This document shows, piece after piece, positions 409 through 5,742 of a DNA stretch of 6,597 nt. Position 1 is the stretch's first letter. Each line of letters opens with the position of its first letter. Under the pieces are notes generated by a model. It did no database searches and was not told the origin of the DNA. It saw only the letters and a list, made by a program, of their open reading frames with translations. The translations under genes and the position numbers were made by a program. The stretch comes from an uncultured Chryseolinea sp. GTDB taxonomy: Bacteria > Bacteroidota > Bacteroidia > Cytophagales > Cyclobacteriaceae. The stretch is taken from the NCBI GenBank assembly GCA_946478915.1, contig CAMLER010000290.1, forward strand, positions 1 to 6,597. Direction: 5' to 3'.

Positions 409-438
409 TGGAAACGGGTCGCTATGGCATTAGCATTA

Positions 439-468
439 CAAAACTAAAAAATTTAGTTTACTTTCAAA
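439..468 (-). promoter_or_regulatory. Predicted Bacteroidota-type promoter of the regulator gene
   Basis: On the minus strand TTTG (468-465) is followed after 18 nt by TAGTTTTG (446-439). The second element matches the Bacteroidota -7 consensus TAnnTTTG fully, the first matches the -33 TTTG, and the spacing lies within the range reported for this phylum. Transcription would start near 430-435 and give a leader of about 120 nt before ATG at 309. The -7 element and spacer overlap the dyad at 442-458, so a protein bound there would block this promoter, as expected for autoregulation. Confidence 0.6.
442..458. promoter_or_regulatory. Candidate operator O1, dyad AACTAA-N5-TTAGTT
   Basis: AACTAAAAAATTTAGTT is a dyad with 6-bp half-sites 5 bp apart; pairing extends to 8-bp arms, AAACTAAA (441-448) and TTTAGTTT (452-459). 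The same 6-5-6 arrangement recurs at 475-491. It sits between divergent regulator and dinB genes and overlaps the predicted regulator promoter. The likely ligand is the adjacent XRE-type repressor; this assignment is inferred from position and symmetry. Confidence 0.65.
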
Positions 469-488
469 ACATTTAACTAATATTTTTA
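457..488 (+). promoter_or_regulatory. Weak candidate dinB promoter inside the operator region
   Basis: The best rightward match is TATTTTTA (481-488), one base off TAnnTTTG, with TTTA (457-460) 20 nt upstream in place of TTTG. Both elements touch the candidate operators. The predicted leader would be only about 7-12 nt. The match is imperfect and the true start could lie elsewhere in 430-495. Confidence 0.3.
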
Positions 489-491
489 GTT
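475..491. promoter_or_regulatory. Candidate operator O2, dyad AACTAA-N5-TTAGTT
   Basis: AACTAATATTTTTAGTT has the same half-sites and 5-bp spacing as O1, and here pairing extends outward to TTAACTAA (473-480) and TTAGTTAA (486-493). Its centre (483) is 33 bp from that of O1 (450), close to three helical turns, so two dimers could bind on the same face and cooperate. It ends 10 bp before the dinB start codon and would cover that gene's promoter or initiation region. Confidence 0.65.
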
Positions 492-501
492 AATTAGCGA
501 C

Positions 502-1695
502 ATGGATCGGAACATTATTCATCTGGATCTTGATGCTTTCTTCGTAGCAGTTGAATGCCAACGCAATCCTTTTTTAAAAGGCAAACCACTCATTGTAGGC
601 GGAAGTAGTCGGCGTGGGGTTGTAGCGGCATGCAGCTATGAAACCAGAAAGTTTGGGGTACACTCTGCGATGCCGGTGTATCTAGCCCTTCAGTTGTGTC
701 CCGATGCAATTGTGATTTCTGGCGACGTGGAAGCTTATACCGTTGCGTCCCACCTGGTCACGGAAATTATCGCGGACTCCGCTCCGCTGTTCGAGAAATC
801 ATCGATCGATGAATTTTACATTGACGCCAGCGGGATGGACCGATATTTCGGAGCTTTTAAATGGGCTGTCGAGTTGCGAAAAAAAATAGTCAAGGAAAGC
901 AATCTTCCGATATCAATGGGGATGTCTGTCAACAAGCTGGTTTCAAAAGTTGCAACCGGGGAGTTCAAACCCAATGCAGAACAACATATAGAAGCCGGTA
1001 CAGAAAAAGAATTTCTTGCGCCTTTGTCGGTGGACAAAATTCCCATGATCGGTAAACAAACCTCATCGTTCCTCTATGATATGGGTGTGCGTACAGTCGA
1101 AACGTTACGGGCAATGCCTTTGAAATTTCTCATCAGCGCTTTTGGCAAAAATGGTGTGAGTCTTTGGAACAAAGCCCATGGTATCGATGAGTCACCCGTC
1201 GTTCCTTATATGGAACAAAAGTCAATATCGACTGAATGCACATTTGATCAGGATACCATCGACGTAAAAAAACTGAAATCGATACTTATTGCAATGGTAG
1301 AGAAGGTTGCCTTCCAGATGCGGGAGCAGCGTAAGCTCGCGTCGTGCGTAACCGTTAAGATACGCTACTCGAACTTTGACACCGAAACGAAACAAGTACA
1401 AATCCCCTATACCGCTTCTGATCATGTGTTACTCCGGATAGTTAACGAGTTGTTTAACAAACTTTACAATAGGCGGATGCTAATTCGACTTGTGGGTGTA
1501 AGGCTCAGTGGACTGGTACATGGAAGTCATCAGATCAGTTTGTTTGACGATACAGCCGAATCCATTAACCTCTACCAGGCCATCGATCACATCAAACACC
1601 GACATGGTTCTGAGAAACTAACGCGGGCAACTACTCTGGGCGTTAGTAACCGGGTGCGAATGCACATGAATATGTTTAAAGGAAATTTGAAATAA
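502..1695 (+). CDS. dinB: DNA polymerase IV, Y-family translesion polymerase
   Basis: The 397-residue protein has the full Y-family layout. The palm begins with HLDLDAFFVAVE (catalytic D9, steric-gate position F14) and carries the second acidic motif SIDEFYID (D103, E104). The fingers region holds the GVVAACSYETRKFGVHSAMP stretch. MSVNKLVSKVA and a KPN motif follow at about 141-158. A thumb HhH (KIPMIGKQ, about 179-186) and a little finger (about 235-340) complete the core. QISLFD (344-349) is a near-ideal beta-clamp-binding motif. All catalytic acidic residues are present, so it should be an active, error-prone bypass polymerase, unlike the inactive ImuB of classical mutasomes. ATG 502 is the only plausible start because an in-frame stop lies at 487-489. 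The gene ends in tandem TAA TAA and is followed after 15 bp by the 2H-like gene, so the two are probably cotranscribed under the twin operators. Confidence 0.96.
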   Translation: MDRNIIHLDLDAFFVAVECQRNPFLKGKPLIVGGSSRRGVVAACSYETRKFGVHSAMPVYLALQLCPDAIVISGDVEAYTVASHLVTEIIADSAPLFEKSSIDEFYIDASGMDRYFGAFKWAVELRKKIVKESNLPISMGMSVNKLVSKVATGEFKPNAEQHIEAGTEKEFLAPLSVDKIPMIGKQTSSFLYDMGVRTVETLRAMPLKFLISAFGKNGVSLWNKAHGIDESPVVPYMEQKSISTECTFDQDTIDVKKLKSILIAMVEKVAFQMREQRKLASCVTVKIRYSNFDTETKQVQIPYTASDHVLLRIVNELFNKLYNRRMLIRLVGVRLSGLVHGSHQISLFDDTAESINLYQAIDHIKHRHGSEKLTRATTLGVSNRVRMHMNMFKGNLK

Positions 1696-1710: not shown

Positions 1711-2247
1711 ATGACACGATTGATTAAAAACCCAGTTCAGGAATTACTTTTTCTGATATCGCCCCCACCGCACATCGCGAGCGATGTTTCCGTTTTGAAA
1801 GATGACGTGCAGTTCCTGATCGGCCACGAGTTCGAGGACCGGTATTCGAGAGCGAATATTTCGCTGTTCAAATACAGCGACAAACACATCGAAGAGATAA
1901 TTCAGCATGTAGAAGGGAAGGCAGCGCACTTTAAGCCATTTAACGTGTTTATAAAAAACCTGAATGTGTTCCGTTATGGTTCATCGCGCTCAATCTACCT
2001 CGACGTAGTCAACAAGTATCCGATCAGAGATATCTTTGAAAAGCTGGTAAAGGAGGATGTTAATTATACACCCCATATTTCGATTGCGAAAAACATCAGT
2101 CTTGAAGACTTTTTGAAGTCATGGGCTTACCTGAAAGATCTGCCGTACAGTCAACATTTTCTTTGCGACAGAATAACGGTTCTTGCACGAAATGAGAAGA
2201 AATGGGTACACTACCGTGATATCATGTTTGGAAAAATTAATTGGTAA
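1711..2247 (+). CDS. 2H phosphoesterase / 2'-5' RNA ligase-like protein with altered first catalytic motif
   Basis: The 178-residue length and two-lobed pattern fit the 2H phosphoesterase superfamily (LigT, cyclic phosphodiesterases), whose active site uses two H-x-[ST] motifs. The second is intact: TPHISIAK with H122-I-S124. At the expected place of the first stands RANISLFKY, so Asn49 replaces His (N49-I-S51). I recall the same Asn in other Bacteroidota proteins annotated as 2'-5' RNA ligase family, so it may be a subfamily trait, but I cannot verify this. With one His missing, hydrolysis or ligation of 2',3'-cyclic or 2'-5' phosphates is doubtful, and a binding role is possible. There is no signal peptide or membrane segment, so it is cytoplasmic. 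It lies 15 bp after dinB and probably shares its mRNA, which suggests a part in the DNA-damage response. Fold assignment is fairly secure; function is unknown. Confidence 0.8.
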   Translation: MTRLIKNPVQELLFLISPPPHIASDVSVLKDDVQFLIGHEFEDRYSRANISLFKYSDKHIEEIIQHVEGKAAHFKPFNVFIKNLNVFRYGSSRSIYLDVVNKYPIRDIFEKLVKEDVNYTPHISIAKNISLEDFLKSWAYLKDLPYSQHFLCDRITVLARNEKKWVHYRDIMFGKINW

Positions 2248-2688
2248 ACGAATGATGTCACCCAGTAAACGTCAATCGTAGCGGGGAAATTGATCCGAAA
2301 AAATCATCTGGTGAATATCGGAGGCAGTGCCTGCTCCATTCATTCGAAAGAAATTTCTGTCTGAGCGAAATGTTAAAAAATTAATTGCGCATTGGTGAAT
2401 CACATATGAAGTGTTCCCAATCCTTTCACTAAGACAAAGACAAATATTGCTAAGAACGGTTAAGAATCGATCTTTTGCTTTTTCCTTTTCACGAAAGGTG
2501 AAATTGAATTTGATCCATCATGTTAGCCTTCATGATGATCTGTTCGAAGCTCTTGCAGTTTTCCCACGCAAACAATACAAAAAGATGTAGGACTTGCAAG
2601 AAACAAATCTCGTGCTGTACCCTTTCTCACGCTGCGGGATTTGAATTTGCAGTCCAATGGAAACCATGAAGTATATATCGTAGGTCAA
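2248..2688. other. 441-bp stretch without a convincing gene between the 2H gene and dnaE2
   Basis: No ORF here resembles a known family. Local symmetric elements can be seen: an imperfect hairpin at 2320-2337 (GGAGGCAG against CTGCTCC, one bulge), a perfect palindrome AGAAATTTCT (2349-2358), a hairpin TTTCAC/GTGAAA (2487-2503), and CATCATG/CATGATG with an 8-nt loop (2516-2537). None is followed by a T-run. The 9-mer TTGAATTTG occurs at 2504-2512 and 2641-2649. No copy of the AACTAA-N5-TTAGTT dyad is present and no strong TAnnTTTG promoter is seen. The stretch may hold a separate dnaE2 promoter, a small RNA, or the remains of a lost gene. Confidence 0.5.
2516..2537. repeat. Inverted repeat CATCATG/CATGATG upstream of dnaE2
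   Basis: Perfect 7-bp arms (2516-2522 and 2531-2537) enclose an 8-nt loop. Flanking GATC on both sides (2512-2515 and 2537-2540) adds pairing if a base is bulged. It lies about 150 bp before the polymerase start in otherwise unexplained sequence. It could be an operator or a leader hairpin; nothing ties it to a specific protein. Confidence 0.35.
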
Positions 2689-5600
2689 ATGTATCTCAAC
2701 TGCCACACAGGTTTTAGTTTCAAGTATGGAACGCTTCCAATCGAAACCCTTTTCGACGAAGCAAAGCGATGTGGCATTCACAAACTCGCGTTGACCGAAA
2801 TTAACAACACAGCTTCCTATCTGGAAATGCTGCGGATATGCCAAAAAAATCGCTCATCCAGCAATGGTCTCACGAAATTTGGAAAGGAGCCTTATGAATT
2901 GGAGATAGCAGTGGGTGTGGAGTTTCGGAAAGACGACCAACTACTTTACACCGCTATCGCAAAGAACAACGCAGGATTTGAGACAATCAACAGATTTCTC
3001 TCCTACAAGAACAGAGAAGAAACCTCGCTTCCGAACCGGGCACCGGACTGGGAGAATGTATTTACTATTTATCCCTTTGGAAAAGTCGATCCGGAAATGC
3101 TTCGCGAAAATGAATCCATCGGGGTTGGCAGGCAAGACATCCTTCAGTACTCAATTAGCCGCGACCGTGAAACATACACCCGGAAGTACGTTGGATGGCA
3201 TCCCGTCACTTTTCTTCCGCCAGAAAAAAGAAATGGTAAATTAGTTTACAAAGATCATAACGCTCACCGTTTGCTTCGGTGCATGGCCAATAATACTCTG
3301 CTCAGCAAACTGGCTGACCACCAACAGGCGAGCCGGGAAGAATACATGTTACCAGAGGCGGAATTCATCAAAATTTTCGAATCCTGCCCTGAGCTAGTTG
3401 AAAACGCAAACAGTCTGCTGGCACAATGTTCCATTGCGTGCGAGCAACATGAAGATAAGAACAAAAAATTTTTCACCGGTAATAAGAATGATGACTCCCA
3501 ACTCCTTAGAAAAGAAACGAAGAAAGGATTTAGTCTTCGATATGGCGATGACAAAAAAATATGGGAAGAACGCGTAGAAAAAGAATTAACTATCATTGAA
3601 AACAAAAATTTTACGGCATATTACCTGATCACGTACGACCTGATCAATCATGCAAAATCAAAGGGCTTCGAGTTTGTGGGGAGAGGAAGTGGCGCCAACA
3701 GTACCGTCGCCTATTGTCTTGGTATTACCAATGTCGATCCGGTTGAGCTTGACCTGTATTTCGAGCGATTTCTGAATGAAGAACGTACTTCACCACCTGA
3801 CTTTGATATCGATTTTGCCTGGAATAATCGCGACGAAATCTATCAGTATCTATTTGAAAAATACGGACTGAACCATGTTTGCCTGTTGGGTACCCATGTA
3901 ACCTACCAAGGTCGCTCGATCTTGCGCGAGTTAGGGAAAGTCTTTGGTTTGCCAAAAAACGAAATCGATGAATTGGTAGAAAGCAGGAAAGAACGGATTG
4001 ACCGCGACGACATCTGGAAGATGATCCATGCATACGCGGAATATTTCGTTGAGAAAGAGCTCCCATCGCATATGTCCATTCATGCCGGAGGGGTATTAAT
4101 TACCGAGAAACCGATATATGCGTATACCGCGACCGATACACCACCAAAGGGCCTTCCCGTGTCTCATTTCGAAATGCACAGTGCGGAAGACTTTGGGATT
4201 TACAAATTTGACATCCTAAGTCAGCGGGGACTTGGACACATTAAAGAAACTGTACGGCTGGTAAAAAGGAACAAAGGTATTGATGTCGACATACATTGCT
4301 TTACAGAATTTAAGAAAGATGAAAAGATCAAGCAACTCATGCGCAACAGCAAAGCGATGGGGTGCTTTTATGTCGAATCACCTGCGATGCGAATGCTGCT
4401 TGGAAAGTTGCGATGTGACAATTACCTGACGCTGGTTGCGGCGAGTTCTATCATTAGACCTGGCGTTGCAAGTTCTGGAATGATGAAAGCTTACATCGAA
4501 CGATTTCATACGGTCAGGAACGGCGGGACGTACGAAGCCATTCATCCCCGAATGGATGAACTCATGAAAGAAACTTATGGCGTGATGGTTTACCAGGAGG
4601 ATGTGATCAAGGTCGCTCATTTTTTCGCCGGACTTACGTTGACAGAAGCAGATGTATTGCGACGGGCGATGTCGGGTAAATATCGGTCACGCGAAGAATT
4701 TCATCGCGTGCGCGACCGGTTTTTTCACAATTGTCGCATGAAGGGTTATGATCAGAAGGTTATCGATCGCGTCTGGTATGAAATTGAAAGTTTTTCAGGC
4801 TATTCTTTCGCCAAAGGTCACTCGGCAAGTTACGCTGTTGAAAGCTATCAAAGTCTCTATCTGAAAGCCCATTTTCCACTCGAATTCATGGTGGGCGTAA
4901 TCAACAATTTCGGAGGGTTTTATAAAACAGAATTCTATTTTCATGAGGCTCGGATGAATGGAGCACAAATTGAAGCACCGTGTGTGAATCTCAGCGAATA
5001 CAATACTACTATTTTTGGTAAAAGAATCTATATTGGTTTTATCCATTTAAAGAGTCTTGAAACAAAGGTTGCAGAGCAAATTTCGGCAGAAAGAGTCCGG
5101 GGTGGATCTTACAAAAGCCTTGACAATTTTCTGAGGAGGATAACGCTAGGCCTGGAGCAGGTTCGGATCCTCATCAGGATTGGTGCCTTCAGGTTTACGG
5201 GGAAGACCAAGCAACAACTATTATGGAATGCGATGCTATTCTTCAGCGGCGCAAAAGCACGAAACAACACAACGGTAGATCTATTCGACACAGAGCCAAA
5301 AGAATTCCCATTACCTCATTTAGAAAGGAATGCACTAGATGATGCTTTCGATGAAATGGAATTGCTAGGGTTTCCGCTGTGCAATCCTTTCGATCTCATA
5401 TCAGAAGATGCAATGAGCGAAAACCACGCAACCGATCTTTCTGCTTTAGTCGGACGGTCCGTTCGTGTATTAGGGTATAACGTTACGACTAAAGACACGA
5501 GCACGTCAAAGGGTGAGATCATGCATTTTGGTACATTTTACGATCGTCAGGGTGACGTATTTGATACTGTGCATTTCCCGGACATTGCAAAAAAATACCC

Positions 5601-5742
5601 CTTCCGGGGAAGAGGTTTTTATGACATTAAGGGAAAGGTCGTGGAAGAGTTTGGCGTTATCACCATAGAAGTTTCTTCGATGGTAAAGGTCCCCATGATT
5701 CACAAACGTCCGGAAAAAGCGCTTCTTACCATCCCTGTTTAG
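2689..5742 (+). CDS. dnaE2: DnaE2/ImuC-type DNA polymerase III alpha subunit (error-prone class)
   Basis: The 1017-residue C-family polymerase starts at ATG 2689 (MYLNCHTGFSFKYG), where family similarity begins; the frame is open further back to a TTG at 2641, but those 16 residues look unrelated. An N-terminal PHP domain (about 1-200) has lost ligands: N4 where the first His of HxH is expected, and TEINNT (36-41) in place of TDHxN. Palm: GRGSGANST (331-339), PPDFDIDF with D371 and D373, SIHAGG (463-468), and YKFDIL with the third catalytic Asp, D508. Then VYQEDVIK and FAKGHSASYA, an HhH segment ending IGAFRFTGKTKQQLLWNA (about 831-848), TVDLFD as a possible clamp motif (862-867), and an OB-fold from about 924. 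At about 1000 residues it is much shorter than usual replicative DnaE of this phylum and lacks an evident long C-terminal tau-binding region. Length and proximity to dinB indicate lesion bypass rather than bulk replication. Genome pipelines often call such genes dnaE. Confidence 0.93.
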   Translation: MYLNCHTGFSFKYGTLPIETLFDEAKRCGIHKLALTEINNTASYLEMLRICQKNRSSSNGLTKFGKEPYELEIAVGVEFRKDDQLLYTAIAKNNAGFETINRFLSYKNREETSLPNRAPDWENVFTIYPFGKVDPEMLRENESIGVGRQDILQYSISRDRETYTRKYVGWHPVTFLPPEKRNGKLVYKDHNAHRLLRCMANNTLLSKLADHQQASREEYMLPEAEFIKIFESCPELVENANSLLAQCSIACEQHEDKNKKFFTGNKNDDSQLLRKETKKGFSLRYGDDKKIWEERVEKELTIIENKNFTAYYLITYDLINHAKSKGFEFVGRGSGANSTVAYCLGITNVDPVELDLYFERFLNEERTSPPDFDIDFAWNNRDEIYQYLFEKYGLNHVCLLGTHVTYQGRSILRELGKVFGLPKNEIDELVESRKERIDRDDIWKMIHAYAEYFVEKELPSHMSIHAGGVLITEKPIYAYTATDTPPKGLPVSHFEMHSAEDFGIYKFDILSQRGLGHIKETVRLVKRNKGIDVDIHCFTEFKKDEKIKQLMRNSKAMGCFYVESPAMRMLLGKLRCDNYLTLVAASSIIRPGVASSGMMKAYIERFHTVRNGGTYEAIHPRMDELMKETYGVMVYQEDVIKVAHFFAGLTLTEADVLRRAMSGKYRSREEFHRVRDRFFHNCRMKGYDQKVIDRVWYEIESFSGYSFAKGHSASYAVESYQSLYLKAHFPLEFMVGVINNFGGFYKTEFYFHEARMNGAQIEAPCVNLSEYNTTIFGKRIYIGFIHLKSLETKVAEQISAERVRGGSYKSLDNFLRRITLGLEQVRILIRIGAFRFTGKTKQQLLWNAMLFFSGAKARNNTTVDLFDTEPKEFPLPHLERNALDDAFDEMELLGFPLCNPFDLISEDAMSENHATDLSALVGRSVRVLGYNVTTKDTSTSKGEIMHFGTFYDRQGDVFDTVHFPDIAKKYPFRGRGFYDIKGKVVEEFGVITIEVSSMVKVPMIHKRPEKALLTIPV

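Follow-up and report, generated by a model that had tools for sequence, protein, structure and literature searches.

What binds the two identical dyads that separate a divergently transcribed regulator gene from dinB, and do they form part of an SOS system? The motif AACTAA-N5-TTAGTT occurs twice in the window (i.e. the whole stretch of 6,597 nt that was analysed), between the start codons of the regulator (ATG 309, minus strand) and of dinB (ATG 502). The dyad centres (450 and 483) lie 33 bp apart; 10 bp separate the pair from the start codon of dinB, and 132 bp separate it from the regulator's (Table 1). Direct reading gave 8-bp arms in both cases, composed of the core plus one outer and one inner pair in site 1 (441-448/452-459) and of the core plus two outer pairs in site 2 (473-480/486-493). 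No third copy was found in the whole window at up to two mismatches. Sequence matching and direct reading thus bore out an earlier note on this DNA, which had described two dyads with identical half-sites, the same 5-bp spacer, a centre-to-centre distance of 33 bp, 8-bp arms and no further copy in the window.

Table 1. Positions of the features discussed (window coordinates, except for the last row)
Feature	Position	Strand	Evidence or remark
Putative SOS box 1, AACTAA-AAAAT-TTAGTT	442..458	.	Sequence match and shuffles; kept in relatives
Putative SOS box 2, AACTAA-TATTT-TTAGTT	475..491	.	Sequence match and shuffles; kept in relatives
Predicted -7 element TAGTTTTG (TAnnTTTG) of the regulator promoter	439..446	-	Overlaps box 1
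Possible -33 element TTTG of the regulator promoter	468-465	-	By eye only
CI-type HTH regulator, N-terminal 103 aa	1..309	-	HTH_3, 54.9 bits; remainder beyond the window edge
dinB, Y-family DNA polymerase IV	502..1695	+	
2'-5' RNA ligase-superfamily gene, next in the cassette after dinB	1711..2247	+	PF13563, 46.2 bits
dnaE-type polymerase gene	2641..5742	+	Listed from TTG; true start may be further in
Small-family loci L129-L144, L148 and L150	e.g. L129:1501-1866		ca. 122 aa

By tblastn, many related loci, but not all of them, have a relative of the 2'-5' RNA ligase-superfamily gene downstream of dinB. In the window, ca. 390 bp lacking an SOS box (2248-2640) lie between the ligase-like gene and dnaE. 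When plasmids were searched with DinB, five records were obtained, every one below 60% identity. A short frame ending in box 1 (ATGGCA...AACTAA) might have encoded a leader peptide, but this idea was rejected, because inspection by eye indicated that it is not preserved in several relatives.

Conservation of the box upstream of dinB

Of 75 loci encoding relatives of the window DinB, 70 were kept; L015, L061, L064, L073 and L074 were left out because the contig starts too close to the gene. An exact CTAA-N5-TTAG was present at -120 to +15 of the dinB start in 67 of the 70 (two boxes in 35 loci, one in 32), a figure that is no count of independent events, since these loci share descent. Each of nine control patterns (composition-matched dyads and other spacers) was found in 0 or 1 of the 70 loci, and beyond the dinB upstream regions the same loci contained 7 boxes in 965,367 bases. 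The exact box was absent from the upstream regions of Elizabethkingia occulta (L063), a Bacteroidales bin (L067) and the non-Bacteroidetes Thorsellia (L075); at -59, L063 carries TTACAATTTGTAA, whose arms are those published for Elizabethkingia. An intergenic alignment with four relatives showed that the boxes are kept and that most other intergenic DNA has diverged, so both comparisons of orthologous regions proposed in the earlier note came out in its favour. Since 32 of the 70 upstream regions contain a single exact box, a pair is not required everywhere. In L005, L006, L009 and L019 the regulator gene is more than 1 kb from dinB, and the twin boxes remain with dinB at 33 bp.

The core of both window dyads, including its fixed 5-bp spacer, is one of the two SOS boxes of the Bacteroidetes non-canonical LexA (Sanchez-Osuna et al. 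2021, PMC8565304). As described in the main text of that study, the Pontibacter actiniarum repressor binds CTAA-N5-TTAG in gel shifts, its binding is abolished by altering either arm or the spacer, and mitomycin C induced predicted target genes with this core; cleavage of the repressor was deduced there from conserved residues. In the literature searched, the string CTAA-N5-TTAG was found only in PMC8565304, whose main text contains neither the word Ohtaekwangia nor any word beginning with Cyclobacteri-. The window finding is real and was read correctly for the most part, although as an SOS box the motif is not new. The suggestion that the motif may define an SOS box for this lineage is supported (published core, sites before repair genes), with the qualification that the box had been described before and occurs far beyond the lineage. 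What is added here is the placement of the lineage inside this known SOS system, a predicted overlap of box 1 with the regulator promoter, a spacing rule linked to the regulator clade, a weak link to recA and a candidate new SOS gene family.

The regulator and its predicted promoter

At the window edge the regulator gene is cut off ahead of the part that would encode the S24 domain. It is 89% identical to the L002 regulator, which at full length carries Peptidase_S24. The L105 regulator, a full-length relative, contains HTH_3 (PF01381) and Peptidase_S24 (PF00717) and is no canonical LexA, scoring 20.8 bits with the model TIGR00498, against a cut-off of 110.95. The Ala-Gly pair, the G(D/E)SM serine and a downstream lysine were recognized by eye in 9/9 HTH-type relatives. 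Judged from these relatives, in which the S24 domain is present, the window regulator is predicted to be a non-canonical LexA.

Ten S24 proteins in total were found in 8 genomes of named relatives, which were also used for the regulon counts below. The dinB neighbour was the sole one found in six of the genomes, and Chryseotalea encodes two that share this HTH type, both of them close to a dinB gene. The genome of Pseudochryseolinea flava contains an extra LexA-like protein (L100:1249-1872; 156.3 bits, above the TIGR00498 cut-off); its gene stands directly before a CD-NTase (oligonucleotide cyclase) gene, which suggests that it is probably a defence-island regulator.

A leftward match to the Bacteroidetes -7 consensus TAnnTTTG, as given in PMC7366714, is present at 446-439 (TAGTTTTG), and box 1 would therefore cover the regulator promoter, leaving a leader of roughly 120 nt. 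In 22 of the 35 box-bearing loci for which a regulator was detected (the window among them), TAnnTTTG adjoins the first box and points toward the regulator; in the box-bearing loci where none was detected, it does so in 0 of 33. It depends on the distance of the regulator gene, being present in 21/25 loci at 150 bp or more and in 1/10 at 81 bp or less. No match was found on the inner flanks of pairs (0/28 and 0/28) or after the dinB-side box (0/35 and 0/33 loci), and the dinB promoter could not be placed. Inspection by eye of the window (420-434) and of relatives L001-L021 showed a conserved element, GCTATGGCA, immediately outside box 1 and close to where the regulator transcript is predicted to begin, in many loci with the regulator at least 150 bp away.

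Regulon in related genomes

A scan of the 8 genomes revealed 37 sites matching AACTAA-N5-TTAGTT, compared with 7 for the reversed pattern, and at least one site in 7/8 genomes. Recurrent targets follow 30 of these strict sites: dinB (7), ImuA-like genes (8), recA (1), PA0069-family radical SAM genes (3), UDG-linked radical SAM genes (2) and a small unnamed family (9). Four others have a weak or possible small-family member nearby (two in L112, one each in L115 and L128), and the last three (L076, L113 and L116) are outside the recurrent target groups. In L116, the site and the start of a DprA-like gene (PF02481, 192.4 bits) are 48 bp apart. The assignment of neighbours covers 36 sites, the 37th being the dinB box of L017, and with crude frame calling 4/36 fell inside an open frame. 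Target names rest on one representative apiece, of which L078 and L081 score above their NCBIfam cut-offs and L119 has ImuA as its best match, below the cut-off.

The recA gene is preceded by exact boxes in 1/8 genomes (two boxes, 31 bp apart). One-mismatch sites occur within 300 bp of recA in five of the other seven genomes (within 170 bp in three), and one of these genomes has a pair of such sites 34 bp apart; in 2/8 genomes neither an exact nor a one-mismatch site was present within 300 bp. In these related genomes, the scan proposed in the earlier note gave the expected sites at dinB and at other SOS genes (ImuA-like and two radical SAM families), but for the most part no exact box at recA.

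A profile built from the eight members of the small family found through the motif matched 23 places in 7/8 genomes. At 65 bits or more, 15/16 matches have an exact box within ca. 110 bp upstream, including 6/7 of the members not found via the motif; among weaker matches the figure is 1/7. In L117 and L123 the family gene is followed by a SRAP gene in the same orientation; in L089 the SRAP gene is on the opposite strand. Four family sequences gave no Pfam family above cut-off. The protein database contained 236 relatives, and the best 120 of the 236 are mostly annotated "hypothetical protein", with one "restriction endonuclease Mrr". An AlphaFold2 model is mainly helical and confident (pLDDT 92.8). 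The family is a candidate new DNA-damage protein.

Pair spacing and comparison with known repressors

Seven of the 8 genomes (all except G007) supplied the loci in which pairs of boxes with centres 14-60 bp apart were counted. All 28 distinct pairs, which stand before dinB, ImuA-like, radical SAM, recA and small-family genes, are spaced by 21-23 or 31-34 bp; these bins were derived from the 28 pairs themselves, many of which are orthologous. Collapsed to 14 promoter-and-spacing combinations, the pairs still show an uneven helical phase (Rayleigh, ca. 5e-5 at 10.5 bp). In the 70 dinB loci, spacings of 33 (20 cases), 32 (5), 20 (3) and 31 bp (2) were observed, with single cases at 21, 23, 24, 29 and 41 bp.

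The scan was extended to 148 genomes of the family, with the regulators compared in a separate search. Among the matches listed, 22/22 pairs of five further genomes whose regulator is at least 61% identical fell into the two bins, compared with 8/42 where the regulator is at most 57% identical or none was found; this split was set after the spacings were known, the identities themselves coming from the separate search. In the latter group 9.5/42 would be expected in the bins under uniformity, 18-20 bp is common and a distinct, weaker phasing is seen (R 0.38, p ca. 0.002), again among the matches listed. A prior prediction that spacings would be mostly 20-24 or 31-34 bp held in the close-regulator genomes and failed with distant regulators (15/42 by hand count, vs ca. 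12 under uniformity), both among the matches listed. An order-wide scan (390 genomes, 100 with a match) added two close-genome pairs, both at 33 bp, giving 24/24 in the bins, and seven distant-genome pairs outside the 42, two of them in the bins; its spacings were mixed (16-18, 20-24, 31-34 and 39-43 bp), all these counts being among the matches listed. Six of the 24 close pairs are dinB pairs, of which at least five had already been seen in the dinB-locus analysis.

The readings of the dyads differ in how well they accommodate these observations. That they are palindromes arisen by chance, or that they play a structural part in AT-rich promoter DNA, is scarcely credible: the region is indeed AT-rich and 7/200 dinucleotide-preserving shuffles contained at least two copies at up to two mismatches, but an exact copy appeared in 0/200, and spacers of 3, 4, 6 and 7 were found in 1, 0, 0 and 0 of the 70 dinB upstream regions, vs 67 for a spacer of 5. 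It is also improbable that a regulator other than the neighbour binds the sites. Many genomes of the family do encode at least two related regulators, as does one of the eight, but in six of these the only S24 protein found is the dinB neighbour. The attribution of the motif to the adjacent CI/LexA-like repressor, made in the earlier note, draws support from the boxes at 67/70 dinB loci, the relative with HTH_3 and S24 domains, the sites before repair genes and the P. actiniarum homologue; before recA, for the most part, the exact box is missing.

A reading to which we give appreciable, if minority, weight is that the boxes act independently, box 1 on the regulator and box 2 on dinB, the 33 bp reflecting back-to-back promoters and the dimers making no contact. 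The leftward TAnnTTTG adjoining box 1 in 22/35 loci, the position of box 2 beside dinB, and the single exact box found in 25 of the 33 dinB loci that have a box but no detected regulator are consistent with it. It does not predict, however, the same spacings before ImuA-like, radical SAM, recA and small-family genes, which share no divergent regulator. Two touching dimers on one face of the helix would be the simplest reading of the spacing.

Taken together, the dyads are very probably two paired SOS boxes, to which the divergent regulator, a non-canonical LexA with a CI-type HTH and an S24 peptidase domain, would bind as dimers, binding and damage induction being attributed to this box and regulator by analogy with the published homologues. 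In the undamaged cell, the repressor would occupy both boxes and silence dinB, probably together with the downstream cassette, and through box 1 it would also silence its own promoter. Upon DNA damage, RecA filaments would trigger self-cleavage at Ala-Gly, and the genes would be released. Lambda CI dimers bind adjacent operators cooperatively, and the two dimers may likewise bind cooperatively on one helix face. We consider the chances about even for a broader proposal: that the SOS repressor of the Chryseolinea-Ohtaekwangia group obeys a strict twin-box rule of two or three helical turns, such that CI-like cooperative pairs, beyond single-site affinity, set repression; that this rule follows the regulator clade and shifts in distant relatives; and that the regulon includes the small unnamed family (sometimes beside a SRAP gene), with recA largely off exact-box control. 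Should this spacing rule prove correct, the regulon could be predicted more sharply in the clade.

The window system and the regulon described in the main text of PMC8565304 share the core, the spacer and the repressor architecture, and the targets dinB/dnaE, imuA, SplB-like and COG4277-type radical SAM genes are common to that regulon and the present lineage. Multiple boxes per promoter are noted in PMC8565304 too, and no pair-spacing rule was found in its searched main text. Unlike in that regulon, recA in the present lineage mostly lacks an exact box. The Elizabethkingia site TTAC-N5-GTAA of the same study, as described there, is likewise an N5 dyad between a divergent regulator and an error-prone polymerase gene, but differs from the window boxes in its arms. 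With lambda CI acting on OR/OL, as presented in PMC3708714, the window regulator, judged from its relatives, shares the CI-type HTH and the S24-type domain, and there, too, neighbouring dyads are bound, in that case by interacting dimers. The present case differs in concerning a host SOS repressor with two spacing classes, whose cooperativity is suggested by spacing, and it bears on whether a host SOS repressor of the phage-repressor type has kept the cooperative pairing of phage repressors.
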